A DNA stretch of 64,000 nucleotides from assembly GCF_003403315.2 (NCBI RefSeq), contig NZ_CP048407.1, forward strand, positions 1,178,001 through 1,242,000. Reading direction: 5' to 3'. The translations under genes and the position numbers were made by a program. The stretch is from Thermaerobacter sp. PB12/4term. Its GTDB lineage: Bacteria; Bacillota; Sulfobacillia; Thermaerobacterales; Thermaerobacteraceae. This document shows, one piece after another, positions 10,087 through 34,370 of the stretch; position 1 is the first letter of the stretch, and each line of letters opens with the position of its first letter. The notes under the pieces are model-generated. The model was not told the DNA's origin. It worked only from the letters and a program-made list of their open reading frames with translations, and ran no database searches.

Positions 10087-10229
10087 GTCGCCGATAGAAG
10101 GAATGACCAGTTCCGGTGCAGAATCATGTCGACCAGTGCCGGCTGGAAAGCCGCTACAACTGGATAAGCTTCGGGGGTGAGCCGCGGTTTCTGTCCCGGT
10201 TGAAACGGCCAGAGCCCGGCCACCCCCCG

Positions 10230-10323
10230 CGGCAGCGACAAAGGCACCCCTGTCGAAAGGCAGGCTCGCAAAGTCACGGGTCTACGGCCCCGCTGGGGCG
10301 GGGCTATGACGGCCGGACTGCCG
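10230..10323 (+). promoter_or_regulatory. Cyclic-di-GMP class I (GEMM-I) riboswitch aptamer
   Basis: Closing stem CGGCAG (10230-10235) pairs with CTGCCG (10318-10323). Inside, a GACAAAGGCAC strand leads into hairpin CCTGTC-GAAA-GGCAGG (10249-10264). Then comes the conserved CTCGCAAAGTCACGGGTCTA segment, and a second hairpin CCCCGC/GCGGGG with the tetraloop-receptor-like CTATGAC. The order of GNRA tetraloop, CGCAAAG and GGGTCTA elements is that of GEMM-I. It lies about 100 nt upstream of flgB and is followed by a terminator, so it should sense c-di-GMP and set transcription of the flagellar operon, as described for Clostridioides difficile flgB. The OFF polarity is inferred. Confidence 0.88.
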
Positions 10324-10333
10324 AACGCCGCAC

Positions 10334-10399
10334 GGTTGAGTTTGCTCAACCCTGGCGTCCGCCCGTGGTGCCCCTGCGCGCCGCGGGCGCCTTTCTTTT
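10334..10399 (+). terminator. Riboswitch expression platform: hairpin and intrinsic terminator
   Basis: A small hairpin GGTTGAG-TTTG-CTCAACC (10334-10351) is followed by GGTGCCC (10367-10373) pairing with GGGCGCC (10385-10391, one G-U pair) and the tract TTTCTTTT (10392-10399). The T tract ends 24 nt before the flgB GTG, the arrangement expected for transcriptional control by the upstream c-di-GMP aptamer. Confidence 0.7.
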
Positions 10400-10423
10400 C
10401 CAGCGGCGGGAGGGGGTGGACCC

Positions 10424-10987
10424 GTGTGGGGGCGCATCAACGATGAACTGGCTGCCGGGCTGGAGGTTCTGGCCCTCCGCCAGCGGCTGCTGGCCCAGAA
10501 CGTAGCCAACGCCGAGACGCCCGGCTACAAGCGGTATGACCTGGACTTCGCCCGGGCCCTGGAGGCGGCGCTGACCGGCCGCGGGCCGGCGGGAGGCCAG
10601 GCCGCGGGGTGGGCAGCCGGGGCCGGTGAGGCCGGTGGGGCCGGCGGGGTAGAGCCGGCCGGGGCCGCCGCACCGGTCACCGGGGCCGGGGGGATGGGGG
10701 CCGCCGGCGCGGGCGGGGTGGCGGCCGGGCCCGCCGTGCCCGGTGGCCCGCTGCCCCTGGCCGTCACCCACCCGGGCCACCTGCCGGGCCGGTGGGCGTC
10801 GGGGGATCCGGCGGCGGCGGTGTACCGGGAGACCGGTTCCTCCCTGCGCAACGACGGCAACAACGTCGACCTGGACGTGGAGATGGCGCGGATGGCCGAA
10901 AACGGCGTTCACTACCAGGCCCTGGTGCGGCAACTGTCCGATCGCATCGCCCTGCTGCGCACGGTCATCGCCGAGGGGAGGCGGTAA
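10424..10987 (+). CDS. flgB: Flagellar basal-body rod protein FlgB
   Basis: Proximal rod subunit exported by the flagellar type III system. The N-terminus has the rod/hook signature (LLAQNVANAETPGYKR), and the C-terminus has the helical block NNVDLDVEMARMAENGVHYQ. It has 187 residues against about 130 in relatives. The excess is a Gly/Ala/Pro-rich insert of about 70 residues between the two conserved ends, where rod proteins tolerate variation. GTG start behind a GGGAGGGGG ribosome site. First gene of the operon under riboswitch control. Confidence 0.93.
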   Translation: MWGRINDELAAGLEVLALRQRLLAQNVANAETPGYKRYDLDFARALEAALTGRGPAGGQAAGWAAGAGEAGGAGGVEPAGAAAPVTGAGGMGAAGAGGVAAGPAVPGGPLPLAVTHPGHLPGRWASGDPAAAVYRETGSSLRNDGNNVDLDVEMARMAENGVHYQALVRQLSDRIALLRTVIAEGRR

Positions 10988-10990
10988 GCG

Positions 10991-11557
10991 GTGCCGGGCG
11001 GGATGTTCAGCACCTTCGACATCGCGGCCAGCGGCATGACGGCCCAGCGGCTGCGCCTCGACCTGATCGCCAGCAACCTGGCCAACGTGGACTCCACCCG
11101 CACCCCCCAGGGCGGGCCCTACCGCCGGCTGGTGCCGGTCTTCCAGGAGCGGGCGACGCCCTTCGCCCGGATCCTCCGGGAACGGGGTGCGGTGCCGGGG
11201 CCGGTTCCGCAGGCGGGTGCCGCGGCCGGCTGGGCACGTCCCGCCGTGGCCGGCGTAGCGGGCGGGCCGGTGCCGGCCGTAGCCGGTCGGGGAGTGGCGG
11301 GTCCGGGCGGGACCGGAGCCGCCCCCGGCGGGGTCCAGGTGGCGGCAGTGGTCGCCGATCCCTCGCCGCCCCGGCTGGTGTACGACCCGGCCCATCCCGA
11401 TGCGGGCCCGGATGGTTACGTGGCGTACCCCAACGTGGACCCCCTGGCGGAGATGGTCAACCTGCTGGCGGCCACCCGGGCCTACGAGGCCAATGTGGCG
11501 GTCTTCGCCGCGGCCCGCACCCTGGCCCTGCGGGCCCTGGACATTGGCCGCGGCTGA
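10991..11557 (+). CDS. flgC: Flagellar basal-body rod protein FlgC
   Basis: Proximal rod protein partnering FlgB. The N-terminal motif FSTFDIAASGMTAQRLRLDLIASNLANVDSTRT and the C-terminal YPNVDPLAEMVNLLAATRAYEANVAVF region are diagnostic. The 188-residue protein includes a central Ala/Gly/Val-rich insertion of about 50 residues. GTG start with GGGGAGG nine nt upstream; an ATG at 11003 is possible but lacks a ribosome site. It begins 3 nt after flgB. Confidence 0.94.
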   Translation: MPGGMFSTFDIAASGMTAQRLRLDLIASNLANVDSTRTPQGGPYRRLVPVFQERATPFARILRERGAVPGPVPQAGAAAGWARPAVAGVAGGPVPAVAGRGVAGPGGTGAAPGGVQVAAVVADPSPPRLVYDPAHPDAGPDGYVAYPNVDPLAEMVNLLAATRAYEANVAVFAAARTLALRALDIGRG

Positions 11558-11637
11558 ACGGCCTTGCGGCTACCGGACGCCCCTGGGGCCGCCAGGGTCC
11601 CGGCAACTCCGCGGCTTCGACGGAGGAGGTTTGAGCC

Positions 11638-12015
11638 ATGAACCCATGGGGAGTCCAGCCCTCCGGCAACGCCGCCTGGCCCGGCCCATCCACGGCTACC
11701 GGCCTGGGCGGGACCGCCGGCTCGTCCGGAAGGGCGGCGGTTGCCGCCGCGGGCGACGGTACGGCGGCCGGTTCCACCGGGCCGGGTGGCGTGGGAGCCA
11801 GCTTTCTGCAGGAGCTGGCCCGAGCCCTCCAGCAGCTGGAGGGAGCGGCCGGCGAGGCCGACGCCATGGCCCGGCGCCTGGTGACGGGCCAGGTCCAGGA
11901 CCTGTCCCAGGTCATGGTGGCCAGCGAGAAAGCCCGGCTGGCCATCGAACTGGCGGTGCAGCTGCGCAACAAGGCGCTCGAGGCCTACCAGGAGATCATG
12001 CGCATGCCCGTGTGA
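11638..12015 (+). CDS. fliE: Flagellar hook-basal body complex protein FliE
   Basis: FliE joins the MS ring to the rod. The conserved C-terminal half reads SFLQELARALQQLEGAAGEADAMARRL and then VMVASEKARLAIELAVQLRNKALEAYQEIMRMPV, typical of FliE. The first 50 residues are a Gly/Ala/Ser/Pro-rich leader. It has 125 residues, slightly above the usual ~100. ATG start with GGAGGAGG upstream. Confidence 0.93.
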   Translation: MNPWGVQPSGNAAWPGPSTATGLGGTAGSSGRAAVAAAGDGTAAGSTGPGGVGASFLQELARALQQLEGAAGEADAMARRLVTGQVQDLSQVMVASEKARLAIELAVQLRNKALEAYQEIMRMPV

Positions 12016-12104
12016 CGGGCACGGCCCTGCGGCGGCAGGCGGGATGAGCGGAACGGGGCCGGAAGGCAGGGTCGCGGTCGGTCGAGGAGGCGGCGGAATC
12101 CTTC

Positions 12105-13760
12105 ATGCCCCTGGCACAGGTGCGGCAGATTCCCCAGCAATTCATGGCCTGGTTCCGGCAGCTTAGGCCGGCAGCCCGGTGGGTGGTGGTCTCGGCGGCG
12201 GCTCTGGCCCTGGCCGGCCTGGTGGCGCTGGCCCTGGCAGGGCGCAGCGGGCCCCAGTGGGCCCCCCTCTTCACTCAGCTGGACCCCACCGACGCCGCGG
12301 CCATCGCCGGCCAGCTTGAGGAGCAAGGCATCCCCTTCCAGCTGGCCCAGGGCGGCCAGGCCATTCTGGTGCCGGCGGAACAGGTCGACCGGCTGCGCCT
12401 GGACCTGGCCGCCCAGGGACTGCCGCGCCAGGGGACGGTGGGCCTGGAGCTTCTGGAGAACATGCCGATGGGCGCCACGGAGTTCGAGCGGCAGGTGCAG
12501 TACTTGCGGGGGCTCCAGGGCGAGCTGGCCCGCACCATCGGCCGGCTGGAGGGGGTGGAGGCGGCGCGGGTGCATGTGGTGCTGCCCGAGCGCAGCCCCT
12601 TCGTCAGCCAGCAGCGGCCTGCCACCGCGGCGGTGCTGGTCCAGCTGAAACCAGGGGCAGAGCTCGAGCCGGAGCAGGTGCGGTCCATCATGCACCTGGT
12701 CGCCTCGGCGGTGGAAGGCCTGAAGCCCGAAGACGTGACGGTGGTGGATACCACCGGCCGCCTGCTCTCGGCCGGGGTCGAGCCGGCCCAGGAAGGGAGC
12801 GCCGTGGTGCCGGGTGACCGCTTCGAGGTGGAACGCCGCTTCGAGGCGGAGCTGCAGCGCAGCCTCCAGACCCTGCTGGAACAGGTCCTGGGTCCGGGCA
12901 ACGTCATCGCCCGGGTCAATGCCGAGCTCAACTTCGACCAGCAGGTGGTGGAACGTCACCTCTTCGAGCCCCCGGCCGACGGCGGCCAGGGCATCCTGCG
13001 GTCCATCCAGGAGCTGCAGGAAACCTTCACCGGCCGGCCCGCACCGGGCGGGGTGCCGGGGGACAGCAACATCCCCACCTACCCCCAGGTGGGCGGCGGC
13101 ACCGGCGACTACCAGCGCAGCGAGCGGACGGCCAACTACGAGGTCAACCAGGTGGTCGACCGGGTGCAGGTGGCCCCGGGCGCGGTAAGGCGCCTGTCGG
13201 TGGCCGTGGTGGTCAATGGCGATCTCACCCCCGAGCGGCGGCAGGCCCTCCAGCAGGCGGTGGCCGCGGCCATCGGCAGCGACCCCCAGCGCCAGGACCA
13301 GGTCGAGGTGGTGGCCATGCCCTTCGACACCACGGTGGCCGACCGCCTGCAGCAGTCCCTGGAGGAGGAGCGGCAGGCCCGGGAAGCGACCCGGCGGATG
13401 GCCCTGCTGGCCGGCGCGGCCGGGCTGGCGCTGCTGGCCCTGGTCCTCCTGGTGGTCGCCTGGCGGCGCCGGCGGCTGGCCCGCCGGCTCCTGGAAGCAC
13501 AAGCCGCCGGTCACGGGTTGCCAGCCGCGCCGGGGAGCACCGCCGGCACGGTGGCGGCCGGTCCGGCCGGGCGGGGCACCGCGGCCGTACCCGGCCCCGG
13601 CGGGCCCGTTCCGGGACCGGCCGGGGCCGCGGCGACGGGTGCCAACGGCAGGGCGGCGGAGGCCACGGTCCTCGAGCAGGTCAGCGAGCTGGTGAAGAAC
13701 CAGCCGGAGCACGTGGCCCAGGTGATCCGCAGCTGGCTGGCCGAGCGGTCCGCCAACTGA
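12105..13760 (+). CDS. fliF: Flagellar MS-ring protein FliF
   Basis: Forms the membrane-embedded MS ring on which the motor and export gate assemble. The 551-residue protein has a first membrane helix (about 24-46), the ring-building repeats (LFTQLDPTDAAAIAGQLEEQGIPFQL, then HVVLPERSPFVSQQRPATAAVLV), a second membrane helix (about 425-448) and a C-terminal FliG-binding peptide (EQVSELVKNQPEHVAQVIRSWL). Length is normal. The cytoplasmic tail carries a Gly/Pro-rich spacer before the FliG-binding end. It begins about 90 nt after fliE. Confidence 0.95.
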   Translation: MPLAQVRQIPQQFMAWFRQLRPAARWVVVSAAALALAGLVALALAGRSGPQWAPLFTQLDPTDAAAIAGQLEEQGIPFQLAQGGQAILVPAEQVDRLRLDLAAQGLPRQGTVGLELLENMPMGATEFERQVQYLRGLQGELARTIGRLEGVEAARVHVVLPERSPFVSQQRPATAAVLVQLKPGAELEPEQVRSIMHLVASAVEGLKPEDVTVVDTTGRLLSAGVEPAQEGSAVVPGDRFEVERRFEAELQRSLQTLLEQVLGPGNVIARVNAELNFDQQVVERHLFEPPADGGQGILRSIQELQETFTGRPAPGGVPGDSNIPTYPQVGGGTGDYQRSERTANYEVNQVVDRVQVAPGAVRRLSVAVVVNGDLTPERRQALQQAVAAAIGSDPQRQDQVEVVAMPFDTTVADRLQQSLEEERQAREATRRMALLAGAAGLALLALVLLVVAWRRRRLARRLLEAQAAGHGLPAAPGSTAGTVAAGPAGRGTAAVPGPGGPVPGPAGAAATGANGRAAEATVLEQVSELVKNQPEHVAQVIRSWLAERSAN

Positions 13761-13811
13761 CGGCGGCGGCAGCCGGGACGGCCAGACCCGGCGCGGGCGG
13801 GGAAGGAGGCG

Positions 13812-15011
13812 ATGGCCATGGCGACAAGGCAGGTTGCGGTGGCAACGGCCGGCACGGCGGCGGCCGGGGGTACCCCCCGGGGTGGAATCAGGGCCCCGGC
13901 AGCGCCGGTCGCCGGGGAGGTGGCCGAGGGTCTGGAGGGCGGGATCGCGGCGGAGCCGGGGGCCGGTGCGGCGGCCGCCGGTGCCCGGCCTGCCCTCCGG
14001 GAGGCGGCCCGCGACCTGTCGCCGCGGCGCAAGGCCGCCATCCTGATGATCTCCCTGGGACCGGAGCTGGCCGCCCGGGTCTTCCGCTACCTGCGGGAGG
14101 AGGAGATCGAACAGCTCACCCTGGAGATCGCCAACACCGACCGGGTCGCTCCCGAACAGCGGCTGGCGGTGCTGGAGGAGTGCCGGGATCTGGCCCTGGC
14201 CCACGCCTACATCGCCCAGGGCGGCATCGACTATGCCAGGGAGCTGCTGGTGCAGGCCTTGGGCCACCAGCGGGCGGCGGAGGTGATCAACCGCCTCACC
14301 TCGACCCTGCAGGTCCGGCCCTTCGAGTTCGTGCGCCGGGCCGACCCGCTGCAGATCCTGAACTTCATCCAGCAGGAGCACCCCCAGACCATCGCCCTGA
14401 TCCTCGCCTACCTCCATCCGGAGCAGGCCGCCGTCGTCCTCAGCGGCCTGCCGCCCGAGCGCCGGGCCGACGTGGCCCGCCGCCTGGCCCTGATGGAGCG
14501 CACCTCGCCCGAACTGATCCGCGAGGTGGAGCGGGTCCTGGAACGCAAGCTGTCGTCGGTCCTGGGCGAGGAGGGCACCGTCGCGGGCGGGCTGCAGGCT
14601 GTGGTCCAGGTGCTGAACAACGTGGACCGCGGCACCGAGCGCAGCATCATGGAGGTCCTGGAGGTCACCGATCCCGAGCTGGCCGAGGAGATCAAGAAGC
14701 GGATGTTCGTCTTCGAGGACATCGTGCTGCTGGACGACCGGTCCCTCCAGCGGGTGCTCCGGGAGGTCGACCTCAACGAGGATTTGCCCCTGGCCCTCAA
14801 GGCCGTCAGCGAGGACGTCAAGCAGAAGATCTTCCGCAACCTGTCCCAGCGGGCCGTGGAGATCCTCCAGGAAAACCTGTCGTACCTCGGGCCCGTGCGC
14901 CTCCGCGACGTGGAAGAGGCCCAGCAGAAGATCGTCAACATCATCCGCCGCCTGGAGGAAGAGGGCGAGATCGTCATCGCACGGGGTGGCCAGGATGAAG
15001 TGGTCGTCTAG
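13812..15011 (+). CDS. fliG: Flagellar motor switch protein FliG
   Basis: Rotor protein that contacts the MotA stator and transmits the switch. The conserved part starts about residue 74 (LSPRRKAAILMISLGPELAARVF), with the EHPQ motif (QEHPQTIALILAYL) and the charged torque-generating C-terminal domain (MFVFEDIVLLDDRSLQRVLREVD). It has 399 residues; typical FliG has about 335. The extra is an N-terminal Ala/Gly/Pro-rich extension ahead of the FliF-binding domain. ATG start; a start just before residue 74 cannot be excluded, but no good ribosome site is seen there. Confidence 0.95.
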   Translation: MAMATRQVAVATAGTAAAGGTPRGGIRAPAAPVAGEVAEGLEGGIAAEPGAGAAAAGARPALREAARDLSPRRKAAILMISLGPELAARVFRYLREEEIEQLTLEIANTDRVAPEQRLAVLEECRDLALAHAYIAQGGIDYARELLVQALGHQRAAEVINRLTSTLQVRPFEFVRRADPLQILNFIQQEHPQTIALILAYLHPEQAAVVLSGLPPERRADVARRLALMERTSPELIREVERVLERKLSSVLGEEGTVAGGLQAVVQVLNNVDRGTERSIMEVLEVTDPELAEEIKKRMFVFEDIVLLDDRSLQRVLREVDLNEDLPLALKAVSEDVKQKIFRNLSQRAVEILQENLSYLGPVRLRDVEEAQQKIVNIIRRLEEEGEIVIARGGQDEVVV

Positions 15012-15879
15012 GGTGGGAGACGCCCGGCGGCCGGTTCCCGCCCGCTGGCCGGTGCTGGGGCCCCTGCCCGGCCCCGGCACGGCGGCCCCCGGGCTCCGGC
15101 CGGTGAACTGGCAGCCCGTGGGCCCGGCGGGCGGGACGGTGGCCCCCGCCGCTGCGGGCGAGGCCGCTGCCCCAGCGGAGGCCGCACCGGCTGCCGGACC
15201 GTTGCCGGCAGCTGCCCAGGCGGCGGCCGGCCGGCGGGCCCGCCGCTGGCTCCGGAGGGCCAGGCGGGCGGCGGCCGCCCACCTGGAGAAGGCCCGGCGG
15301 GAGGCTGACGCCCTGTGCCGTCAGGCGCGGGAGGAGGGCTTCCGCCGGGGCGAGCAGGAAGGCCGGGCGCGGTGGGAGACGGCCTGCCGGCAACTGGAGG
15401 AACAGGCAGCCCGCCAGCGGGAGGAACTGGCCGCCGCCTACCGGCAGCTGGTGGAGGCTTCCGCAGGGCCCGTGCTGGAGCTGGTCCTGGTCCTGGCCCG
15501 CCGGGTGGCGGGCGAGGCCCTGGCGGTCGATGCCGCCGCCCTGCGCCGCCAGATCGAGGCGGCCCTGGCCCGGCTGGGGAGCGAGGGGGCCCGGGTGCTG
15601 GTGCATCCCGAGAGCCTGGCCCGGCTGGAGGAGGCGTCGCCCCTGCCCGCTGGCGTGGAGCTGGTGGCCGACCTGACCCTGGCGCCCGGCGACTACCGGG
15701 TGGACACACCCCGGGGGCTCATCGACGGCCGGGTGGAGGCCCAGATGCAGCGCCTCGGTCGGGCCCTCCGGGAGGCCCGGCCCGGGGGCGGGGCGGGCTC
15801 CGGGTCGGATGTCACCGCCGGCGAGGAGGCCGCCGGGGTCCGGACCGATGCCGCCCCGGAGGGGAGGGAAGGAGCATGA
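14995..15879 (+). CDS. fliH: Flagellar assembly protein FliH
   Basis: Stator-like regulator of the FliI ATPase in the export apparatus. It shows the family plan: a Pro/Ala-rich N-terminus, a long charged coiled coil with a GxxxG-type element (EEGFRRGEQEGRARWE), and a C-terminal V-ATPase-E-like domain (VLELVLVLARRVAGEALAVD). It has 294 residues. ATG start at 14995, overlapping the end of fliG by 17 nt; a GTG at 14986 is the alternative. Its stop overlaps the fliI ATG (ATGA). Confidence 0.9.
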   Translation: MKWSSRVGDARRPVPARWPVLGPLPGPGTAAPGLRPVNWQPVGPAGGTVAPAAAGEAAAPAEAAPAAGPLPAAAQAAAGRRARRWLRRARRAAAAHLEKARREADALCRQAREEGFRRGEQEGRARWETACRQLEEQAARQREELAAAYRQLVEASAGPVLELVLVLARRVAGEALAVDAAALRRQIEAALARLGSEGARVLVHPESLARLEEASPLPAGVELVADLTLAPGDYRVDTPRGLIDGRVEAQMQRLGRALREARPGGGAGSGSDVTAGEEAAGVRTDAAPEGREGA

Positions 15880-17306
15880 CGGTGCCGGCCGCCCCGACCC
15901 GGCCCGGTCCCCCGGGCCGGGTCGGAGCTGGGGCTACATCGGGTCCTGGCCTTCAAGGCGCGCAGGGGACCGGTGGGCTCCTGGACTGGGACCGGCTGAA
16001 GGCGGCCGTGCAGGCGGCCGAACCTCGCCCCTGCCAGGGCTGGGTGGAACAGGTGGTCGGCCTGGCGGTCGAGGCCCGGGGCCCCGTGAGCTCCCTGGGG
16101 GAGCTTTGCTGGATCGACCGGCCGGGACGGCCGCCGGTGCCGGCCGAAGTGGTGGGGTTTCGCGGCGCCCGCACCCTGCTGATGCCCCTGGGTGATGCCC
16201 GGGCCATCCGGCCGGGCAGCCGGGTGGAGGCCACGGGCCAGGGGTTCCGGGTGGCCGTGGGCGAGGGCCTGCTGGGCCGGGTGCTGGACGGGCTCGGCCG
16301 GCCCCTGGACGGCGGGGGTCCGGTGGCGGCGGAAGCCTGGTACCCGGCGGAAGCCGACCCCCCGCCGCCCCTGGCCCGCCGGCCCATCCGGGAGCCCTTG
16401 CCCGTGGGGGTTCGCGCCATCGACGCCCTGCTGACCTGCGGCCGGGGCCAGCGGGTGGGCATCTTCGCCGGCAGCGGCGTGGGCAAGAGCACCCTCCTGG
16501 CCATGATGACCCGGCACACGGCGGCGGACGTGGTGGTGGTGGCCCTGATCGGCGAGCGGAACCGGGAGGTGCGGGACTTCGTCGACCACCATCTGGCCGG
16601 TAGCCGCCGGCGCACGGTGGTGGTGGCGGCCACCGCCGACCGGCCGGCCCTGGTGCGCATCAAGGCGGCCCAGGTGGCCACGGCCATTGCCGAGTTCTTC
16701 CGCGACCGGGGCCGCCACGTGCTGCTGGTGATGGATTCGGTGACCCGCTACGCCATGGCCCTGCGGGAGGTGGGCCTGGCCGTGGGCGAGCCGCCGGCCA
16801 CCCGCGGCTACCCGCCGTCGGTCTTCGCCGCCCTGCCGCGGCTGCTGGAGCGGGCGGGGACCGGGGACCGCGGCAGCATCACCGGCTTCTACACGGTGCT
16901 GGTGGACGGGGACGACTTCAACGAGCCCGTCGCCGACGCGGTGCGGGGAACGCTGGACGGCCACATCGTCCTTTCCCGCCAGCTGGCCGAGGAGGGCCAG
17001 TTCCCCGCGGTGGACGTGCTGGCCAGCGTCAGCCGCCTGATGCCGGAGCTGGTCGATGCGGCCCACTGGGCGGCGGCCCAGCGGCTGCGGCGGTGGCTGG
17101 GCGCCTACCGGGAGGCCCGCGACCTGGTGGAGATCGGCGCCTACCAGCGGGGCACCAACCCCGATGTCGACCGGGCCCTGGAGCGCATGCCGGCCATCCG
17201 GGCCTTTCTCTCCCAGGGGCGCGACGAGGCGGCTTCCTTTTCCGAGGCGGTGGCCCGGCTCCAGGAGGTGGCCGGCGGGGACGCCGCCGGCGAGCAGCGT
17301 GCCTGA
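15876..17306 (+). CDS. fliI: Flagellum-specific ATP synthase FliI
   Basis: Export ATPase energising delivery of rod, hook and filament subunits, homologous to F1 beta. Walker A is GSGVGKS from residue 199, with VVALIGERNREVRDFV, Walker B LLVMDSVTRYAMALREV, and the type III ATPase signature GEPPATRGYPPSVF. The protein has 476 residues; the first 35 are a variable Pro/Gly-rich segment. ATG overlaps the fliH stop by 4 nt, with GGAAGGAG upstream. Confidence 0.96.
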   Translation: MTVPAAPTRPGPPGRVGAGATSGPGLQGAQGTGGLLDWDRLKAAVQAAEPRPCQGWVEQVVGLAVEARGPVSSLGELCWIDRPGRPPVPAEVVGFRGARTLLMPLGDARAIRPGSRVEATGQGFRVAVGEGLLGRVLDGLGRPLDGGGPVAAEAWYPAEADPPPPLARRPIREPLPVGVRAIDALLTCGRGQRVGIFAGSGVGKSTLLAMMTRHTAADVVVVALIGERNREVRDFVDHHLAGSRRRTVVVAATADRPALVRIKAAQVATAIAEFFRDRGRHVLLVMDSVTRYAMALREVGLAVGEPPATRGYPPSVFAALPRLLERAGTGDRGSITGFYTVLVDGDDFNEPVADAVRGTLDGHIVLSRQLAEEGQFPAVDVLASVSRLMPELVDAAHWAAAQRLRRWLGAYREARDLVEIGAYQRGTNPDVDRALERMPAIRAFLSQGRDEAASFSEAVARLQEVAGGDAAGEQRA

Positions 17307-17336
17307 GGATCCAGGAGCAGCAGCAGGGGTGGGGGG

Positions 17337-17807
17337 ATGGCCATGGCAAGCGGGGAGCCGTTCCGCTTGCAACGGGTATGGGATGTACGCCGCCTGGAGG
17401 CCCTGGCCCGGCTGGGGGAGTGGGGTCGCTGGCAGGCCCGGGCCCGGCAGGCGCAAGAGGAAGCGACCCTGCTGGAAGCCCAGCGGCGGCAGGCGGCGGG
17501 CGAGCTGGCGGCCGTGGGACCGGCCCGGCCGGCCTTGGAGATGGTGGCCCGCTGGCGGGAGCTGGAGCAGCTGGGACGGCGCTGCCAGGCGGCGGCCGGG
17601 CGGGCCCAGGTCCTGCGGCGGGAAGCCGAAACCCGCCAGCAGGCGGCCGTCGCGGCCCGGCGGGAGGAACAGGCCTACGAGCGACTCCACGACCGGCACC
17701 AGCGGCGGCAGCGCCAGGAGGCGGCGAGGCGGGAGCAAGCCCATCTGGACGAGGTGGCGGGCCGCCGGCCGGCGAGGGAGGAGGTGACGGGCCATGACCC
17801 GTGGTGA
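17337..17807 (+). CDS. fliJ: Flagellar export chaperone FliJ
   Basis: General export chaperone that sits in the FliI ring. Identification rests on position between fliI and fliK and on the almost entirely coiled-coil, Arg/Glu/Ala/Gln-rich sequence of 156 residues beginning FRLQRVWDVRRLEALARLGEW, which fits the N-terminal FliJ pattern. Sequence conservation in this family is low. ATG at 17337, or a second ATG two codons later. The 3' end overlaps fliK by 14 nt. Confidence 0.82.
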   Translation: MAMASGEPFRLQRVWDVRRLEALARLGEWGRWQARARQAQEEATLLEAQRRQAAGELAAVGPARPALEMVARWRELEQLGRRCQAAAGRAQVLRREAETRQQAAVAARREEQAYERLHDRHQRRQRQEAARREQAHLDEVAGRRPAREEVTGHDPW

Positions 17808-19815
17808 TGGGCCGGTGGCGGTGCCGGTGCGATGGGGGTCTGCCGCCGCAGGTGCCGCGGGAACGGGGGCGGCGGTCCCGGGTGGCATTCGTACCGCCGG
17901 GGGCCCCCAGGGGCAGGCGGCGGGCCGGCGGCCGGGAGAGGTATTCGCCGAGCTGCTGGACCAGGCCCGGGCCGGGCGGGGCAGTTCCCCTGGTCCGGCG
18001 GGCGGTACGGCTCCCGCCGGCTCCGGCAGTGCGGGATCTGGAGAGGACAGCGGCCGTGACACCCGCCGTGCCGCCGGCGGAGAGGTCATGGGGCTGGTCG
18101 TGCCTGCCCTGTTTCCCCTGAGTCCCATGCCGGCCCCCGGCGACCAGGTTGGGGCCGGCCTCGAATCCCGTGCCCGGGGTCACGGGACCGAGGCGGTTGC
18201 GGTGGAAGGGTGGTTCGGCACCCGTGAAGCTGCCGGGCCGCGGCCGGCAGGGCTACCGGCGCGGGGGGGTGCAGCGGGCGGATTCGAACCCCGGGAGGCT
18301 GCCGCCAGGTCCGGTACGGCGCCGGAGGCCGGGACGGAAAGCGAAGGCAGCGGCCGGCTGGGGGTCGCGAAGGCGCAGGACAGCGGTCCTGGCGCCGGGC
18401 ACAACGGCGCCCCCGGTGGGGCACCGGGGGCGGGAGGGGCCGAAGGAGCGGGGCGTGACGCCCCGGCGACAGGGGGACCGGATCCCACTGCCGCCGGCGG
18501 GACGGCGGCAGGCCGGAGCCCGTCTCCTGCCCCCGAGGCCGGCAGCGCCTCCCAGGGCAAGGCCGGCCCGGCGGAATCCGCAGGGCCCTCGACCGGCCGC
18601 GCCCAGCCCGTCGCGGGGACCACCGGGGCGGCCGCCACCGCCGCTTCCGGCTCCGGCACGACCTCGGGCCCCACCGCCCCGGCTGCCGGCCCGGTGTCGG
18701 GAACCGGGGCGATGGTTGGGGCAGGGGCGTTCCTTGAGCCGCCGGGAAGCGGAACGCCGGTTTCGGCGGCGGGTGGCCCGGACGCGGCCACGGGTCCGGG
18801 TGCTGCCGCCGGCGGAGCCGCCGGACCCGGCGGCGTCCCGGGTAGCGGCCGGCCGGAGACGCCGGCGCCGGCCCCGGCCTTGTTGCCCGGACAACCCGGT
18901 GGCGGGCTCCTGGCCGGAGGCGGCGAACCGGCGGCAGGGGATGGCAAGGCCGGGACCACCTCGCCGGCGATGACGGGTGCGATGGCTGCCGCGGCCGGCG
19001 GGGCACCGGTCCCCGCCGCCGCGGGGCCGGGGGCCGGGGCGGAAGCTTACGGCGCAGGGTGGCCTGGGCCGGCCTCCGGCCAAGCGGCGGCCGTAGCCGG
19101 CATGGCGAGCCTGCCTGCGGGACAGGGTGGGCCGCTGCTGCCGGGGACAGCCGGGGTCGTGGTGCCGGCGTCCCAGGGGACCGGCATCCCCGAGGGCACG
19201 GCCGCGGCGGGAGCGGCCGGCCCGGGCCGGCCGCTCCCGCCGCCGGGGAGGGGTGAAGGGGAGCCCCTGGCGCCTGCGGCTGCGGCGGCCAGGGGGATGG
19301 CATCGCCGGCGGCGGCCGCGCTGCCGGGAGCGGCCGGTGGCGGCCCCGTGGACGCCGGCCGGTGGGCGGCGGCGGTGGCCCGCTGGATTGAAGGGCTCGA
19401 GTGGCACCGGGCCGGCGACCGGCACCGGTTGCGGCTGGAACTGGCTCCGGCCCACCTGGGACCCCTGCACGTGGAGGTAGCGGGGGACGGCAGCGCGCTG
19501 GCGGCCCGGCTCACGGTGTTCCACCCCGACACCCTGGCCCTGGTCCAGCGTCACCTGGACGAACTCCGCCAGGCCCTGACCGCCCGCGGCTACCAGGTAC
19601 AGGGTCTCGAAGTGGGGCTGGCGGCCGGCGGGACTCCCGGTCAATCCGGGCAGCAGGGGCCGGGCGGCCAGGGTGGCCAGGGCACGGCCTGGGCCTGGGC
19701 CGCAGGCGGGGTCCCGAGCGCGGCCGGCCCCAGCCCGAGGGACGTTCCTTCTGCCGGCCCGGGCACGGCGGCCTTCCCGGGAGGGGGCGGCGGGCGGCTG
19801 GACGTCCGGATCTAG
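17794..19815 (+). CDS. fliK: Flagellar hook-length control protein FliK
   Basis: Secreted molecular ruler that sets hook length and switches FlhB specificity. Only the C-terminal part is conserved: a Flg_hook domain of about residues 526-610 (HRLRLELAPAHLGPLHVEV, TVFHPDTLALVQRHLDELRQAL). The preceding ~520 residues are Gly/Ala/Pro/Thr-rich and low in complexity, as in other FliK proteins but unusually long; the protein has 673 residues. ATG start behind GGAGGAGG, overlapping fliJ. Confidence 0.9.
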   Translation: MTRGDGPVAVPVRWGSAAAGAAGTGAAVPGGIRTAGGPQGQAAGRRPGEVFAELLDQARAGRGSSPGPAGGTAPAGSGSAGSGEDSGRDTRRAAGGEVMGLVVPALFPLSPMPAPGDQVGAGLESRARGHGTEAVAVEGWFGTREAAGPRPAGLPARGGAAGGFEPREAAARSGTAPEAGTESEGSGRLGVAKAQDSGPGAGHNGAPGGAPGAGGAEGAGRDAPATGGPDPTAAGGTAAGRSPSPAPEAGSASQGKAGPAESAGPSTGRAQPVAGTTGAAATAASGSGTTSGPTAPAAGPVSGTGAMVGAGAFLEPPGSGTPVSAAGGPDAATGPGAAAGGAAGPGGVPGSGRPETPAPAPALLPGQPGGGLLAGGGEPAAGDGKAGTTSPAMTGAMAAAAGGAPVPAAAGPGAGAEAYGAGWPGPASGQAAAVAGMASLPAGQGGPLLPGTAGVVVPASQGTGIPEGTAAAGAAGPGRPLPPPGRGEGEPLAPAAAAARGMASPAAAALPGAAGGGPVDAGRWAAAVARWIEGLEWHRAGDRHRLRLELAPAHLGPLHVEVAGDGSALAARLTVFHPDTLALVQRHLDELRQALTARGYQVQGLEVGLAAGGTPGQSGQQGPGGQGGQGTAWAWAAGGVPSAAGPSPRDVPSAGPGTAAFPGGGGGRLDVRI

Positions 19816-19834
19816 GACGTGGGGAGGTGGGGAC

Positions 19835-20314
19835 GTGGCCGGGATGGCCATCACCAGCAGCACGGCGCAAGCGGCGGCCGCGGCGGCGGGTTCCGGCCCG
19901 GGCAGCGCCGGCGGCGCGGCCGGCCGGGCCGGCCCGGGCGGTCCGGGCGGCCTGGCACCCGACGCCTTCTTTCGGTTGCTGGCGGCCCAGCTGCGCTATC
20001 AGGACCCGCTGCAGCCCATGCAGGACACCGCCTTTGTGGCCCAGCTGGCCCAGCTCACCCAGCTGGAGGAGACCCGGGCCCTGCGGGCGGCCCTCAGCGG
20101 GCTTTCGGCCCTGCCCCTGCTGGGCCGGACGGTGGAGATCACCACCGCCCAGGGGACCCGGACCGGCACGGTCACGGGGGTGCGGATGGATCCTGCCGCA
20201 CCGGGCCTGATGATCGACGGCCAGCCCGTGGCCTGGGCCGACGTGCTGGCCCTGCGCCTGGCGGGTGAGGCGGAGCCCGCGGGCGGGCCGCCGGGGCGCC
20301 CGGTGACGGCGTGA
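19835..20314 (+). CDS. flgD: Flagellar hook assembly scaffold FlgD
   Basis: Hook cap needed for polymerisation of FlgE. The diagnostic N-terminal block is FFRLLAAQLRYQDPLQPMQDTAFVAQLAQLTQLE, followed by LLGRTVEI and a short Tudor-like C-terminal region. It has 159 residues, at the short end of the family, lacking the Fn3-like domain of longer FlgD. GTG start chosen for GGGGAGG 7 nt upstream; ATG at 19844 is too far from it. Confidence 0.93.
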   Translation: MAGMAITSSTAQAAAAAAGSGPGSAGGAAGRAGPGGPGGLAPDAFFRLLAAQLRYQDPLQPMQDTAFVAQLAQLTQLEETRALRAALSGLSALPLLGRTVEITTAQGTRTGTVTGVRMDPAAPGLMIDGQPVAWADVLALRLAGEAEPAGGPPGRPVTA

Positions 20315-20464
20315 GGCGGCGGGCACCGGCGGGAGAGCGGTGAGGAACGGGCCCGCCTGGGGCCGCCGGAGGCCCCGGCGGGAGCCGGGGCCGGCCACGG
20401 GGCCGGGCCGGCCGCGTGGGGGAAGGCCCGGCAGGGGGATGACCTTGAGGGAGGGTGAGGCGCC

Positions 20465-21685
20465 ATGATGCGCTCGCTGTACGCCGGCATCTCTGGGCTT
20501 CAGAACCACCAGCTCCGGATGGATGTGGTCGGCAACAACATCGCCAACGTCAACACCGTGGGCTACAAGTCGAGCCGCGTGACCTTCAAGGAGCTGTTCA
20601 ACCAGACCCTGCGGGGGGCCTCGGCGCCCGCCGGGCCGGCCCGGGGCGGGACGAACCCGATCCAGATCGGCCTGGGCACGGCCCTGGGCGGGATCGACGT
20701 GATCCACCAAGCCGGCAACCCCCAGGTGACGGGCGTGGTCACGGACATGGCCATCCAGGGCGACGGGTTCTTCGTGCTGCAGGACGCCACGGGCGGCTAC
20801 GCCTACACCCGGGCCGGCGACTTCCGGCTGGATGCCGAGGGTTACCTGGTGAATGCCGATGGCCTGCGGGTGCTCGGCTGGCAGGCCCAGGGCGGTGTGC
20901 TGCCGGCCCGGGACGCCCTCAACCTGGGCGCCGTCCGCGTCCCCGTGGACCTGGCCGTACCGGCCCAGGCCAGCACCCGGGTGACGTGGTCCAGCAACCT
21001 GGATGCCACGGCACCCACGTCCAGTCCCCTGACCCAGGCCATCGACGTCTACGACTCGCTGGGGAATTCCCATACGCTGATCTTCACCTTCACCCGTACC
21101 GGGCCGAACCAGTGGTCGTGGGACGCCGCCGCGGCCGCCGACCCGGTCACCTCCCTCGGCTCGGGCACCCTGACCTTCAGCAGCGCGGGACTTCTCACGG
21201 CCGGCAGCCCGGGCACCGTGAACTTCAACCCGCCCGGCGCCGACCCCATGACCCTGACCGTCGACTTTGCCGGCTTGACCCAGTACGCCGGGCCGTCCAC
21301 CGCCGAGGCCACGGCCGACGGTTATCCCGCCGGGCAGCTGACGTCCTTCAGCGTCGATGCATCGGGCACCATCACCGGCACCTTCTCCAACGGGATGACC
21401 CAGCCCATCGCCCAGGTGGCGCTGGCCGCCTTCGCCAACCCGGCCGGCCTGCTGCGCGACGGCAACCTCTACTGGGAATCCAACAACTCCGGGGTGGCCC
21501 GGATCGGGGAGGCGGGCATCGGCGGGCGCGGCTCCATCACCCCGGGGGCCCTGGAGATGTCCAACGTCGACCTGTCCCGGGAGTTCGTCGACATGATCGT
21601 GACCCAGCGGGGCTTCCAGGCCAACTCCCGGGTCATCACCACCTCCGACGAGATGCTGCAGGAGCTGGTCAACCTCAAGCGGTAA
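20465..21685 (+). CDS. flgE: Flagellar hook protein FlgE
   Basis: Hook subunit, 406 residues. The N-terminus MMRSLYAGISGLQNHQLRMDVVGNNIANVNTVGYKSSR and the C-terminal block ALEMSNVDLSREFVDMIVTQRGFQANSRVITTSDEMLQELVNLKR form the paired helices of rod/hook proteins. In between are the flagellar basal-body domains (IQGDGFFVL, YTRAGDFRLDAEGYLV). Its place after flgD and its size mark it as FlgE rather than FlgG. ATG start. The 150 nt upstream hold no gene. Confidence 0.94.
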   Translation: MMRSLYAGISGLQNHQLRMDVVGNNIANVNTVGYKSSRVTFKELFNQTLRGASAPAGPARGGTNPIQIGLGTALGGIDVIHQAGNPQVTGVVTDMAIQGDGFFVLQDATGGYAYTRAGDFRLDAEGYLVNADGLRVLGWQAQGGVLPARDALNLGAVRVPVDLAVPAQASTRVTWSSNLDATAPTSSPLTQAIDVYDSLGNSHTLIFTFTRTGPNQWSWDAAAAADPVTSLGSGTLTFSSAGLLTAGSPGTVNFNPPGADPMTLTVDFAGLTQYAGPSTAEATADGYPAGQLTSFSVDASGTITGTFSNGMTQPIAQVALAAFANPAGLLRDGNLYWESNNSGVARIGEAGIGGRGSITPGALEMSNVDLSREFVDMIVTQRGFQANSRVITTSDEMLQELVNLKR

Positions 21686-21768
21686 GCCGGCCGGCTGAGA
21701 GCCCGGCCCGCCGGATGCCGCGGCGGGGACCCGGCCTCAGCGGCCTCAGGTGACGGGAGGGAGCCCCG

Positions 21769-22047
21769 GTGGTGCCGGTGACCCGCCTGGACGGCCGGGA
21801 AGTGGTGGTCAACGCGGAGCTGATCGAGACCCTGGAGGCCACGCCCGATACGGTGATCACGCTGACCACGGGCCGGCGCCTGGTGGTGCGGGAACCCGTG
21901 GAACGGGTGATCGAGCGGGTGGTGGCCTACCGGCGGCGCATCCTGGCGCCGGCCGGGGGACCGGGAGGGGCAGGGGCGTCCTGCGCCCCGGCCTCGCCCG
22001 CCCCGGCCGCCGGGTCCACCGGGCACGAGGACGGTGACCCCAGGTGA
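21769..22047 (+). CDS. flbD: Flagellar protein FlbD (SwrD/YlzI family)
   Basis: Small cytoplasmic protein found after flgE in Firmicutes; in Bacillus subtilis SwrD increases motor power. The 60-residue conserved part reads VTRLDGREVVVNAELIETLEATPDTVITLTTGRRLVVREPVERVIERVVAYRR. A Pro/Ala/Gly tail of about 30 residues follows, overlapping fliL by 4 nt (GTGA). GTG start with GGGAGGG upstream. Confidence 0.9.
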   Translation: MVPVTRLDGREVVVNAELIETLEATPDTVITLTTGRRLVVREPVERVIERVVAYRRRILAPAGGPGGAGASCAPASPAPAAGSTGHEDGDPR

Positions 22048-22538
22048 AAGGCAAACTCCGGTTGCTGTTGATCGTGGTGGTGACGGCGGTGGCCGCCGCT
22101 GCGGGCACCTGGTGGGCCGCCACCCGGGCGGGGGCGGGGGAGCCCCCGCCCCCGCCGGAGCCGGTGGACGTGGCCCTGGAGCCCTTTACCACCAACCTGC
22201 GGGACGGTCGGGTGGTGCAGGTGGCCCTGGTCCTCCGGGTGGCAGGGGAAGAGGCGGCCCAGGCGCTGGAGCACGGCCGCACGGCCGAGGTGCGCCATCA
22301 GGTCTACCGGGTCCTGCGCGGGATGACCGCGGCCGACCTGGCCGGAGCCGGCGGCATGGACCGGCTGCAGCAGGCGCTGCGGGCCGTCCTGGCGGGACAG
22401 GGCGGCGGGTCCGGCCCCGGGGAGGGCGACCCGGGGGCGGGGTCCGGCCTGCCTGCCGGATCCGGGCCCGGTGGACATGCCCCCGGGGGCGGGTTGCCCA
22501 TTCAGGACGTGTTGATCACGGACCTGATCGTCCAGTAG
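22044..22538 (+). CDS. fliL: Flagellar basal body-associated protein FliL
   Basis: Single-pass membrane protein that stabilises stator units around the motor. It has an N-terminal membrane helix (about residues 5-27), a Pro-rich linker (EPPPPPEP), and the periplasmic-type FliL domain with the start of its beta strand (VALEPFTTNLRDGRVVQVALVLRV) and an ITDLIVQ-type end. A Gly/Pro-rich insertion precedes the last strand. 164 residues, GTG start. Confidence 0.88.
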   Translation: MKGKLRLLLIVVVTAVAAAAGTWWAATRAGAGEPPPPPEPVDVALEPFTTNLRDGRVVQVALVLRVAGEEAAQALEHGRTAEVRHQVYRVLRGMTAADLAGAGGMDRLQQALRAVLAGQGGGSGPGEGDPGAGSGLPAGSGPGGHAPGGGLPIQDVLITDLIVQ

Positions 22539-22574
22539 GGGCCTGCAGAGCACGGGCAGGAGGAGGGCTGCGGG

Positions 22575-23543
22575 TTGAACCAGGGCGTGCGCCGCAAGGG
22601 CAGCCGGAGGACGCCGGTGGTCCGGCTCTATGACTTCCGGCGCCCGGACAAGTTCTCCAAGGAGCAGTTGCGCACCCTGGCCATGGTGCACGAGAACGTG
22701 GCCCGGCTGGCAACGGGCTTCTTGTCGGGCCAGCTGCGCACGGTGGTCGAGGTGGCGGTGCTGGAGGTGGAGGAGACGACCTACGGTGAGTTCATCACCG
22801 GGCTCTCCAACCCCACGGTGCTGGCGGTCTTCAACCTGCCGCCCCTGGAGAGCAGCGCCGTCATGGACGTGGAGCCCTCCATCGCCTTTCCCATGGTGGA
22901 CCGCCTGTTCGGCGGGCCGGGCACGGGGGCGGCCACCGGCCGCGGCCTGACGGAGATCGAGACGGTGGTCATGCGGGCCATCCTGCAGGGGCTTCTGGGA
23001 TCCGTCGCCGAGGGGTGGAGCCAGCTCGTCCAGGTGCAGGGCGAACTGGTCACGGTGGCGGCCAATCCCCTGTTCGTCCAGGTTCAGGCGCCCAACGAGA
23101 TCGTCGTGCGGGTGGTGCTGTCGGTCCGGTTCGGCCAGCAGTCCGGAGCCTGGCGGATCTGCCTGCCTTATCCCCTGCTGGAGCCCCTGCTGCCGCGGCT
23201 GGCCGTGCACCAGTACTACGCCCGGGAGACCCGCAGCCAGGCGCGGTCCCGGGAGCGGTGGGAAGAAGGCTTGCGCCAGGTGCCGCTGCCGGTGCAGGTG
23301 GTCCTGGGGCGGGCTCAGCTGACGGTCCGGCAGCTGCTGGACCTGGCGCCGGGGCACGTGCTGCCGCTGGATACCCGGGCCGGAAGCCTGGTCGACATCC
23401 TGGTGGGCGGCCGGCTCAAGTTCCGGGGCCTGCCCGGGCAGCACGGGCAGCGGCTGGCGGTGCAGGTGGTGGAACGGGTGGTAGAGGAGGAACGCGGCCA
23501 TGGGCACGGGCGAGTGGGAGATGCTGTCGCAGGAGGAAATTGA
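22575..23543 (+). CDS. fliM: Flagellar motor switch protein FliM, lacking the CheY-binding N-terminus
   Basis: C-ring protein linking FliG to FliN. The conserved region starts at once ([26 protein letters not shown]), continues through the CheC-like middle domain ([35 protein letters not shown]), and ends in a FliN-like C-terminal domain ([29 protein letters not shown]). The LSQxEIDxLL peptide that normally opens FliM and binds phosphorylated CheY is missing, and an in-frame stop at 22536-22538 rules out an upstream extension. TTG start with AGGAGGG at 22561. It overlaps fliN by 44 nt. Confidence 0.93.
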
Positions 23544-24309
23544 TGCCCTGTTGCGCAGCCTGGCCGAGGAGGGGAGCGGGGCCGGCCCCGCCGGCGGCGA
23601 CGACCCGGCGCGGGGCGCCCCAGGCGGTGCGGAAGGCGCGTCCGGAGGTGCTGCCGGATCCGACGCCCCTCCCCCCGCAGCTTCCGGGTCCGCCGGCGGG
23701 GCATCGGGGTCCGTTGAGCCCCAGGAGGCCTCCCCCATCGCGACGGGCCCCTCCGCCGGAGCCGGGGAGGCCACGGGCAGGCGCCCATCCGCTCTGCCGG
23801 CCGCGACCCCGTCGGCCACCTTCCAGGAGGAGGCGCTTCCGGCGGGCAGGCCGGGCGCGGAGGGGCCGGCCGGTGCCGGCCGGGGTAGTGGCCCGGCCCA
23901 GGCGGCGGCCGCAGCCGAGCCGGCCCCGGCGGGCATCACGGGGGCCGGTAGCCGCCCGGCGGCCGGGTTCTACCCCCTGCACGGCGGTCCCGAGGCCGGC
24001 GAGGGCTGGCCGCCGGAAGGGGAAGGCGGCGCCGGGCCGGCCCTGGCCCGGGGAACCTTGGATCTTCTGCTGGATGTCCCCCTGCAACTGACGGTGGAGC
24101 TGGGCCAGACCCAGCGCACGGTGCGGGAACTGCTGGAGATGGCGCCGGGCACGGTGGTGGAACTGGACCGACTGGCGGGCGAGCCGGTGGACCTGCTGGT
24201 GAACGGCCGCCTGATCGCCCGGGGCGAGGTGGTGGTGATCGATGAGAACTTCGGCATCCGCATCACCGACATCGTCAGCCCCGGCGAGCGCCTCCGTCGC
24301 CTCCGTTGA
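23500..24309 (+). CDS. fliN: Flagellar motor switch protein FliN with a CheY-binding-type N-terminal peptide
   Basis: The C-terminal 85 residues are a standard FliN/SpoA domain ([32 protein letters not shown], then [18 protein letters not shown]). Residues 9-18 are [10 protein letters not shown], the motif that in FliM (and in Bacillus FliY) binds CheY-P. The two are joined by about 160 residues of Gly/Ala/Pro-rich linker. The CheC-like phosphatase domain that makes Bacillus FliY is not present. 269 residues, ATG start with GAGGAGG. An ATG at residue 8 would start exactly at the motif but lacks a ribosome site. Confidence 0.93.
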
Positions 24310-24313
24310 GGGG

Positions 24314-24850
24314 GTGCCGGGGGAGGGCGTTCGGGGGGGACCGGAGCCCGCGGTGGTGGTCATCGACCCCGCCGCCTTTGCCCGGCGCCAGGTCCGGGCC
24401 CAGCTGGCTCCCCTGGGGTGCGTGGTGCTGGAGCTTTCCGGGTCCGAACCCGAGCCCGTGGTCCGCCGCCAGCTCCAGCGGGCCCGGGTGGTCCTGGCCG
24501 AACCGGCTCCGTGGGGCCGGGACGCCGGCCGGTGGCTGGCTGCCCTGAAGGCGATGAATCCCGCCGCCACCCTGGTGGTGTGCACGGCCCTGACCACCCG
24601 GGCGGCCGTGGTGGCCTACCGGCGGGCGGGAGCGGCCGACGTGGTGGCCAAACCGTGGGATCCGGCCCGCCTGCAGGCCGCGGTGCGGTTTGCCCTGGCG
24701 GCCCGGGGGCCGGCGGGAAGGCTGGATCCCCGCGCCAGCCGGGGCGCCGCAACGTCGCCGGGCGGGGAGTCGCCGGGCCGGGCCTGCCAGGGGGCGGGGC
24801 CGGTCCAGGGGGAGACCGGGGGGACGGGGGAACCTTGTGGACAGGCCTGA
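24314..24850 (+). CDS. Degenerate CheY-like receiver protein (phospho-acceptor Asp replaced by Glu)
   Basis: The position between fliN and fliO is that of cheY in Bacillus. The fold is recognisable as a receiver: VVVIDPAAFARR, VVLAEPAP, VVCTAL and VVAKPW line up with the beta strands of CheY. The switch Thr91 and the Lys113 are kept. The acidic pair is reduced to Asp18-Pro19, and the phosphorylated Asp is Glu63 (codon 24500-24502). It therefore probably cannot be phosphorylated in the usual way and may mimic the active state or act only as a scaffold. A ~50-residue Arg/Gly/Pro tail follows. GTG start is uncertain; GTG 24353 is an alternative. Overlaps fliO by 16 nt. Confidence 0.8.
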   Translation: MPGEGVRGGPEPAVVVIDPAAFARRQVRAQLAPLGCVVLELSGSEPEPVVRRQLQRARVVLAEPAPWGRDAGRWLAALKAMNPAATLVVCTALTTRAAVVAYRRAGAADVVAKPWDPARLQAAVRFALAARGPAGRLDPRASRGAATSPGGESPGRACQGAGPVQGETGGTGEPCGQA

Positions 24851-25095
24851 TCCAGTTTCTCGTTGCTTCGCTGCTGGTGATCGCAGCGGCCGCGTGGGGG
24901 AGCCGGGCCCTGGCCCGGTGGTTGAAGCCTGCTCAGGGGGGGCGCGATCTGGAAATCCGGTCCGTGGTGTCCCTGGGCGGCCGGCGGGTCCTGTGCGTGG
25001 TGCGCTGGCACGGGGATGAGCTCCTGCTCGGGGTGACCGACCAGGGCGTGAGCCTGCTGGACCGGCGGGCGGCCCGGGAGGATGAGCCGGCATGA
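24835..25095 (+). CDS. fliO: Flagellar biosynthetic protein FliO
   Basis: Small membrane protein that helps FliP assemble in the export gate. The 86 residues comprise one N-terminal membrane helix (about 3-21) and the FliO domain (DLEIRSVVSLGGRRVLCVVRWHGDELLLGVTDQGVSLL). TTG start after a G-rich ribosome site, overlapping the cheY-like gene. The stop overlaps the fliP ATG. Identification rests on this domain pattern and on position. Confidence 0.86.
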   Translation: MWTGLIQFLVASLLVIAAAAWGSRALARWLKPAQGGRDLEIRSVVSLGGRRVLCVVRWHGDELLLGVTDQGVSLLDRRAAREDEPA

Positions 25096-25775
25096 TGCCC
25101 CAGGTGAACGTCACCCTGCAGCCGGCCACGGGCCCGGAAGGCCTGGGCGCCGCCCTGCAGATCCTGCTTCTGCTCACCGTGCTGTCCCTGGCGCCGGCGC
25201 TGCTGGTGATGATGACGGGCTTCACCCGCATCGTGGTCGCCCTGTCCTTCCTGCGCGGCGCCCTGGGTACCCAGCAGGCCCCGCCCAACCAGGTGCTGGT
25301 GGGGCTGGCACTGTTCCTGACCGTGTTCGTCATGGCACCGGTCTGGCAGCAGGTCTACCAGGACGCCTGGATACCCTACCGGGACGGCCGGATCGGCCAG
25401 GTCGAGGCCCTGCAGCGGGCGCAGGAACCGGTGCGGGAGTTCATGTTCCGCTACACCCGGGAACGGGACCTGGCCCTGTTCCTGGAACTGTCGGGGCGGG
25501 GGCCGGTGGCGTCGCCCGACCAGGTCCCGACCTACGTGCTGATTCCTGCCTTTGCCATCAGCGAGCTCAAGACGGCCTTCCAGATCGGTTTCATCCTTTA
25601 CGTACCCTTTCTGGTCATCGACATGGTGGTGGCCAGCACCCTGATGTCCATGGGCATGTTGATGGTTCCGCCCATGCTGGTGTCGCTGCCGTTCAAGATC
25701 CTGCTGTTCGTGCTGGTCGACGGCTGGAACCTGGTGGTCCGGTCCCTGCTGGCGTCCTTCGGCATGCCGGGCTAG
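25092..25775 (+). CDS. fliP: Flagellar export gate protein FliP
   Basis: Core membrane component of the type III export channel (FliP5-FliQ4-FliR1). Four hydrophobic segments are visible, with the diagnostic VMMTGFTRIVVALSFLRGALGTQQAPPNQVLVGLALFLT and VPTYVLIPAFAISELKTAFQIGF blocks. 227 residues. There is no obvious cleavable signal peptide of the enterobacterial type. ATG overlaps the fliO stop. Confidence 0.96.
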   Translation: MMPQVNVTLQPATGPEGLGAALQILLLLTVLSLAPALLVMMTGFTRIVVALSFLRGALGTQQAPPNQVLVGLALFLTVFVMAPVWQQVYQDAWIPYRDGRIGQVEALQRAQEPVREFMFRYTRERDLALFLELSGRGPVASPDQVPTYVLIPAFAISELKTAFQIGFILYVPFLVIDMVVASTLMSMGMLMVPPMLVSLPFKILLFVLVDGWNLVVRSLLASFGMPG

Positions 25776-25892
25776 AGGCCGGGCTGGAGACCGGGCCAGG
25801 GCACGGCCCGTGGTCCCCCGTACCGGCGGCTGGGCCGGAGAGGGGCCGGGGGAGCCGCCGGGCGGGTCCGGTAGACGAGGGGGAAAGGGATC

Positions 25893-26162
25893 ATGACCGA
25901 CGCCATGGTGCTTACGGTGGGGCGGGAAGCCCTGTGGACGGGCCTTCTGGTGGCCGCCCCCGTGCTCCTCCTGACGGTGGCCGTCGGGGTGGCGATCAGC
26001 ATTCTGCAGGCGGCCACCCAGGTGACGGAGCAGACCCTGGTCTTTGTTCCCAAGATCCTGGCGGCAGCGGCGGCCCTCCTGCTCTTCGGGCCGTGGATGC
26101 TGGCGACCCTGGTGCGCTACACGGTGCAGCTGTACGAATCCATCCCCGGCGTCCTGGGATGA
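25893..26162 (+). CDS. fliQ: Flagellar export gate protein FliQ
   Basis: Two-helix membrane subunit of the export gate, 89 residues, normal length. LLLTVAVGVAISILQAATQVTEQTLVFVPKILA is the signature of the family. ATG start. The 117 nt after fliP contain no gene. Confidence 0.95.
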   Translation: MTDAMVLTVGREALWTGLLVAAPVLLLTVAVGVAISILQAATQVTEQTLVFVPKILAAAAALLLFGPWMLATLVRYTVQLYESIPGVLG

Positions 26163-28539: not shown

Positions 28540-28540
28540 G

Positions 28541-32809: not shown

Positions 32810-32861
32810 CCCGGGCCGGTGCCACCGGACGGCGAGGCGGGGCAAGGAGTGGGGGAGTGGG

Positions 32862-34366: not shown

Positions 34367-34370
34367 TGGG

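Follow-up and report, generated by a model that had tools for sequence, protein, structure and literature searches.

A SigH-type promoter motif and a class I c-di-GMP riboswitch precede the flagellar operon of Thermaerobacter

In the window (the whole 64,000-nucleotide stretch of Thermaerobacter sp. PB12/4term DNA that was analyzed), flgB is preceded by a SigH-type promoter motif, a GEMM-I aptamer and an intrinsic terminator (Table 1), which we interpret, with a probability of roughly 80%, as a c-di-GMP off switch that works with an antiterminator. The aptamer class, terminator, gene order, conservation and promoter motif are read from the sequence itself, and the placement of the GEMM-I element for control of the flagellar operon through transcription termination is supported. 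Both the kind of riboswitch and its position are well known; the SigH-type promoter tells more, and it is what appears to be new here.

Table 1 Features of the flgB leader and the downstream operon, in window coordinates
Feature	Position	Strand	Basis or remark
Predicted SigH-type promoter: -35 GAAGGAATG (10097-10105), 12-nt spacer, -10 GCAGAAT (10118-10124)	10097..10124	+	
Leader hairpin P0: GGGGGUG (10173-10179)/CACCCCC (10221-10227)	10173..10227	+	Predicted fold
GEMM-I (c-di-GMP-I) aptamer including extended P1	10229..10331	+	RF01051, RF03167, covariation
Aptamer parts: outer P1 GCGGC/GCCGC, inner CG/CG, P2 with GAAA loop, P3	10229..10331	+	
Presumed ligand-contact G, equivalent of Vc2 G20	10243	+	Rfam alignment
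Intercalating A, equivalent of Vc2 A47	10270	+	G in c-di-GMP-I-GGC consensus
Presumed ligand-contact C, equivalent of Vc2 C92	10321	+	Unpaired GC before inner P1 strand, Rfam alignment
Intrinsic terminator: 12-bp stem 10360-10371/10378-10389, tail CCUUUCUUUU	10360..10399	+	Predicted fold
flgB, first operon gene	10424..10987	+	TIGR01396, 93.2 bits, cut-off 59
Flagellar operon (predicted single unit), closely spaced genes	10424..34901	+	Family matches
YcgR-like PilZ protein (c-di-GMP receptor), inside operon	32592..33524	+	PilZ 3.3e-16, PilZNR (YcgR) 1e-7

A covariance search of the 2.82-Mb single-contig genome with RF01051 matched the aptamer site at 70.6 bits (cut-off 35, E = 8.5e-14) over positions 1-87 of the 87-position model, which bears out the GEMM-I layout claimed in a first-pass annotation, and in the Rfam scan of the 64-kb window with all families this was the sole site above cut-off. 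The sequence elements listed in that annotation also lie where it had placed them, with the GAAA tetraloop at 10255-10258, CGCAAAG at 10267-10273 and GGGTCTA at 10278-10284. The aptamer shares with the Vc2 type of RF01051 a full-length match, the GAAA tetraloop, the equivalents of G20, A47 and C92, and the P1-P2-P3 architecture; the contact roles of G10243 and C10321 are presumably those of G20 and C92 in the Vc2 structure.

The same scan placed RF03167 (c-di-GMP-I-GGC) at this site as well (10234-10326, 61.2 bits, cut-off 59), with an E-value almost equal to that of RF01051, so that the Rfam label is the outcome of a close competition. RF03167 is preferred by cmscan here and in about half of the leaders from the bacterial class, and both labels are found among the 25 class flgB loci with a match. 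This preference would speak for membership in the c-di-GMP-I-GGC variant class, whose ligand preference may differ. However, although the aptamer passes the RF03167 cut-off, it carries A10270 rather than G at the A47 position, which is the diagnostic one if, as the RF03167 model consensus suggests, the name GGC stands for positions 20/47/92. CGCAAA is moreover invariant in 30/30 aligned aptamers (from 29 genomes), and RF01051 outscores RF03167 and exceeds its own cut-off by a far wider margin. Because CGCAAA stands where the RF03167 consensus reads CGCGAA, we assign the aptamer to the canonical GEMM-I (class I c-di-GMP) type, as a predicted binder of c-di-GMP, and consider the variant class very improbable. 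The c-GAMP (GEMM-Ib) riboswitches, in which A replaces G20, were rejected as a class given the G at 10243. More generally, Rfam clan competition tags many canonical aptamers c-di-GMP-I-GGC though their diagnostic base is A, and annotations relying on this automatic label may mislead.

The P1-P2-P3 architecture is backed by covariation among the class aptamers: in the consensus fold of 30 sequences, 13 of the 21 pairs are altered at both bases in one or more of the sequences. The conserved closing helix consists of CG/CG (10236-10237/10322-10323) and an outer GCGGC (10229-10233)/GCCGC (10327-10331). For this outer P1, strands paired with their own partners average -8.7 kcal/mol versus -6.2 (s.d. 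0.39) when shuffled, and none of 5,000 shuffles was as good. The closing stem proposed earlier, CGGCAG/CTGCCG, is complementary in this sequence, but across the class its pairing is at chance level (4,942 of 5,000 shuffles as good) and it would also cover the ligand-contacting C; it was discarded as the conserved closing stem. One feature counts against our preferred explanation, namely an altered P2 internal loop in the flgB aptamers of the Thermaerobacter family, which reads ACC/CUC (ACC/UUC in genome G001; window positions 10246-10248 and 10265-10267) where nearly all other class aptamers have AAA/G-R-C, a two-sided change that also sets the family apart from its RF01051 relatives. The second aptamer of the same Thermaerobacter-family genomes has a normal P2 internal loop.

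Over the 75 nt of the terminator region, the predicted folding energy is -38.9 kcal/mol (z = -5.0), and the U-tract of the terminator ends at 10399, which agrees with the earlier placement of a terminator 24 nt before flgB (GTG at 10424). Its strands (10360-10389) and those of P1 (10229-10331) are separate, and in most class leaders, too, a terminator lies between aptamer and flgB, usually clear of P1. In the C. difficile Cd1 riboswitch, shown by experiment to switch flagellar genes off, the terminator can form alongside the aptamer and the two can compete with an antiterminator; in the pilM riboswitch, which is of the on type, they are mutually exclusive (PMC9262584). Given the absence of strand sharing, as in Cd1, c-di-GMP should favor termination here, and high c-di-GMP most likely turns the operon of ~26 genes off. 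The opposite direction, in which c-di-GMP prevents termination and switches the flagellar genes on, has a precedent in on-type riboswitches with GEMM-I-like aptamers such as pilM (PMC9262584) but requires aptamer and terminator to exclude one another, which their separate strands do not provide; the flgB riboswitch studied by experiment, that of C. difficile, is an off switch in which c-di-GMP binding leads to termination (PMC6200980). We consider an on switch improbable.

An off switch of this kind would need an antiterminator, for which there are three candidate pairings: the P1 5' strand with the terminator 3' arm, the P1 3' strand with the terminator 5' arm, and CACGGG of the aptamer with CCCGUG. 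Folding from position 10219 gave an antiterminated ground state and folding from the predicted start gave a terminator ground state, and because the outcome flips with the chosen 5' end, an energy-minimized antiterminator is not taken as evidence. Shuffling tests for P1 strands that co-vary with the terminator arms, run on the one-per-group set of leaders, were not significant (418 and 855 of 5,000 shuffles as good), and when truncated leaders were folded, the 5' arm of the terminator had no consistent pairing partner. Upstream of the aptamer, the predicted hairpin P0 has different paired bases in the relative G003 (GGGGGCGGGC/GCCCGCCCCC in the leader alignment).

Control of flgB by GEMM-I in C. 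difficile, mentioned in the first-pass annotation, is indeed established, and the flgB operon there comprises 29 genes over 23 kb (PMC6200980). C. difficile Cdi-1-3 (Cd1) and the Thermaerobacter leader have in common a GEMM-I aptamer and an intrinsic terminator leading a long flgB-first flagellar operon. According to PMC7438776, Cd1 has a SigA-dependent promoter, a 496-nt leader and an invertible DNA switch, whereas the Thermaerobacter leader has a SigH-type promoter and a length of about 290 nt (from its inferred start), with no invertible element seen, and Thermaerobacter has a second GEMM-I heading flgF-flgG.

GEMM-I matches were found in 59 of 61 related genomes, and at 25 of the 30 class flgB loci the aptamer lies directly upstream of flgB on the same strand. 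The arrangement is thus the rule in the class and not an oddity of a high-GC organism, and the novelty once ascribed to it on that ground falls away. Tandem copies occur in two genomes (G007:C56 and G023:C69); in the former (L089:2011-2303), each of the aptamers upstream of flgB has its own predicted terminator. The Thermaerobacter genome itself holds two GEMM-I elements only, the second at 156692 between mreB and flgF-flgG, and both head flagellar operons. This second element (L004:1501-1780; genome 156692-156970) has a P3 insert of ~170-190 nt, shorter in G002 and G003, owing to which its covariance match covers 57 nt only. Of four Thermaerobacter species, two have the exact SigH-type motif in its leader, and the others have one and two mismatches.

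About 26 genes follow closely on the same strand, as had been described, the first being flgB at 10424 and the last an ORF that ends at 34901. Their order is flgB, flgC, fliE, fliF, fliG, fliH, fliI, fliJ, fliK, the flgD position, flgE and flbD; then fliL, fliM, fliN/Y, a CheY-like fragment, fliO, fliP, the fliQ position, fliR, flhB and flhA; and finally flhF, flhG/MinD-like, YcgR/PilZ, a fliA/whiG sigma factor and one ORF without assignment. The family search gave no match at the flgD and fliQ positions. The suggestion that one RNA switch could set flagellar gene expression holds as to its placement before the operon but not as to its being the sole switch, given the further GEMM-I before flgF-flgG. 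Three GGDEF domains and one EAL domain are encoded in the genome, which speaks for the presence of the signal in this organism; with the YcgR-like PilZ gene in the operon, c-di-GMP could act on both flagellar synthesis and flagellar rotation.

The promoter motif and the aptamer downstream of it are ~100 nt apart, and transcription would be expected to start at about 10130-10134. The SigH consensus is RnAGGAww(w)-N11/12-RnnGAAT; GAAGGAATG-N12-GCAGAAT fits RnAGGAww-N-RnnGAAT and is the only match in the window. It shares with C. difficile SigH promoters, such as AGGATTATGAGAGTTCGTGTAGAAT and that of CD0142, the AGGA box, the spacing of 11-12 nt and a -10 box of the GTAGAAT/GTCGAAT type (PMC7438776). 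The early flagellar operon is not named among the C. difficile SigH targets in the available portion of that source, whereas the Thermaerobacter motif precedes one. Our literature search for links between SigH and either flagellar operons or c-di-GMP riboswitches, which was incomplete in coverage and does not prove novelty, returned nothing relevant.

When five family leaders were aligned with MAFFT, a block ahead of the aptamer proved to be conserved; it contains the motif, which is kept in all five members. Across the class, 15 of 29 leaders carry the exact motif ahead of the aptamer, at a distance of no more than 250 nt, and 176,880 nt elsewhere in the same loci contain none; with at most one mismatch, the figures are 22 of 29 leaders and one match elsewhere, though the loci share ancestry and such counts are not independent trials. 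Three permuted control patterns had no match near aptamers and one had a single match. Genome-wide, the scan yielded 22 matches versus none for the reversed pattern, most of the other 20 not lying before obvious SigH targets. As a positive control, the same scan found the motif ahead of the gene, at a distance of up to about 300 nt, in 14/26 spo0A and 10/29 spoVS loci of the class, and the C. difficile counterparts of both genes are SigH targets (PMC7438776). In 57 of the 61 genomes, sigH exceeded its cut-off. Conservation of the motif is strongly supported, and as a promoter the site is putative.

With the riboswitch itself being real, the site might instead be used by a sigma factor other than SigH or by a Spo0A-type regulator acting at TGTCG. 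Promoter assignment from sequence is weak, a TGTCG-containing sequence adjoins the motif, and the C. difficile flgB operon uses a SigA promoter (PMC7438776). Yet among the class leaders both boxes and the 11-12-nt spacing are constant while the spacer sequence varies, as expected of a sigma-factor site, and the class also has this motif in front of spo0A and spoVS. No promoter of the sigma-70 type was found in 9850-10500. A FliA (sigma-28) promoter was considered and rejected, as GCCGATAG at ~10090 resembles a -10 box but has no TAAA about 15 nt upstream, and the FliA pattern is absent from 30/30 class flgB loci. We regard a different user of the site as unlikely and retain a SigH-type promoter as the preferred reading. 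Just upstream of it (10050-10087), a conserved inverted repeat, GGGACC...GGTCCC, is followed by a T-run and probably terminates hslU or serves as an operator.

We infer that the aptamer binds its ligand, that the switch works in the off direction, that an antiterminator pairing forms and that SigH is used in the cell; the resulting mechanism would run as follows. RNA polymerase with SigH or a close equivalent would start transcription near 10130. At high c-di-GMP, the ligand would bind the nascent aptamer and lock P1, the downstream terminator would fold and transcription would end at about 10399, leaving the operon off. At low c-di-GMP, an antiterminator using one P1 strand would delay terminator folding, and the polymerase would carry on into flgB and the ~26 genes behind it.

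Beyond Thermaerobacter, clostridial genomes that have no riboswitch at this place also carry SigH-type motifs ahead of flgB (L129, L131, L143, L145 and L146), at distances of 86-165 nt from the flgB match. Exact SigH-type matches occur at several clostridial flgB loci without GEMM-I there (Lutispora, a Thermoanaerobacter and others), though A+T-rich genomes yield more matches by chance; these sites suggest that the link between SigH and flagella may predate the riboswitch.

For the class as a whole, we lean towards a model in which SigH drives the early flagellar operon and a c-di-GMP off switch gates it, so that motility would coincide with preparation for sporulation. If this is true, c-di-GMP would decide whether the flagellar branch runs during that preparation. 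Riboswitch control of a whole flagellar operon, mainly studied in C. difficile, is common in this deep lineage of Gram-positive spore formers. The type species of the genus, T. marianensis, has been described as a spore former that is not motile and in which no flagella were seen, although its genome carries flagellar genes (PMC3035304), which makes the hypothesis directly testable. Gating by SigH and c-di-GMP, if correct, could explain full flagellar gene sets in Thermaerobacter cultures reported as non-motile, and the leader offers two concrete, measurable possible causes of flagellar gene silence in culture, together with a testable link between the onset of sporulation (SigH), the lifestyle signal c-di-GMP and motility.
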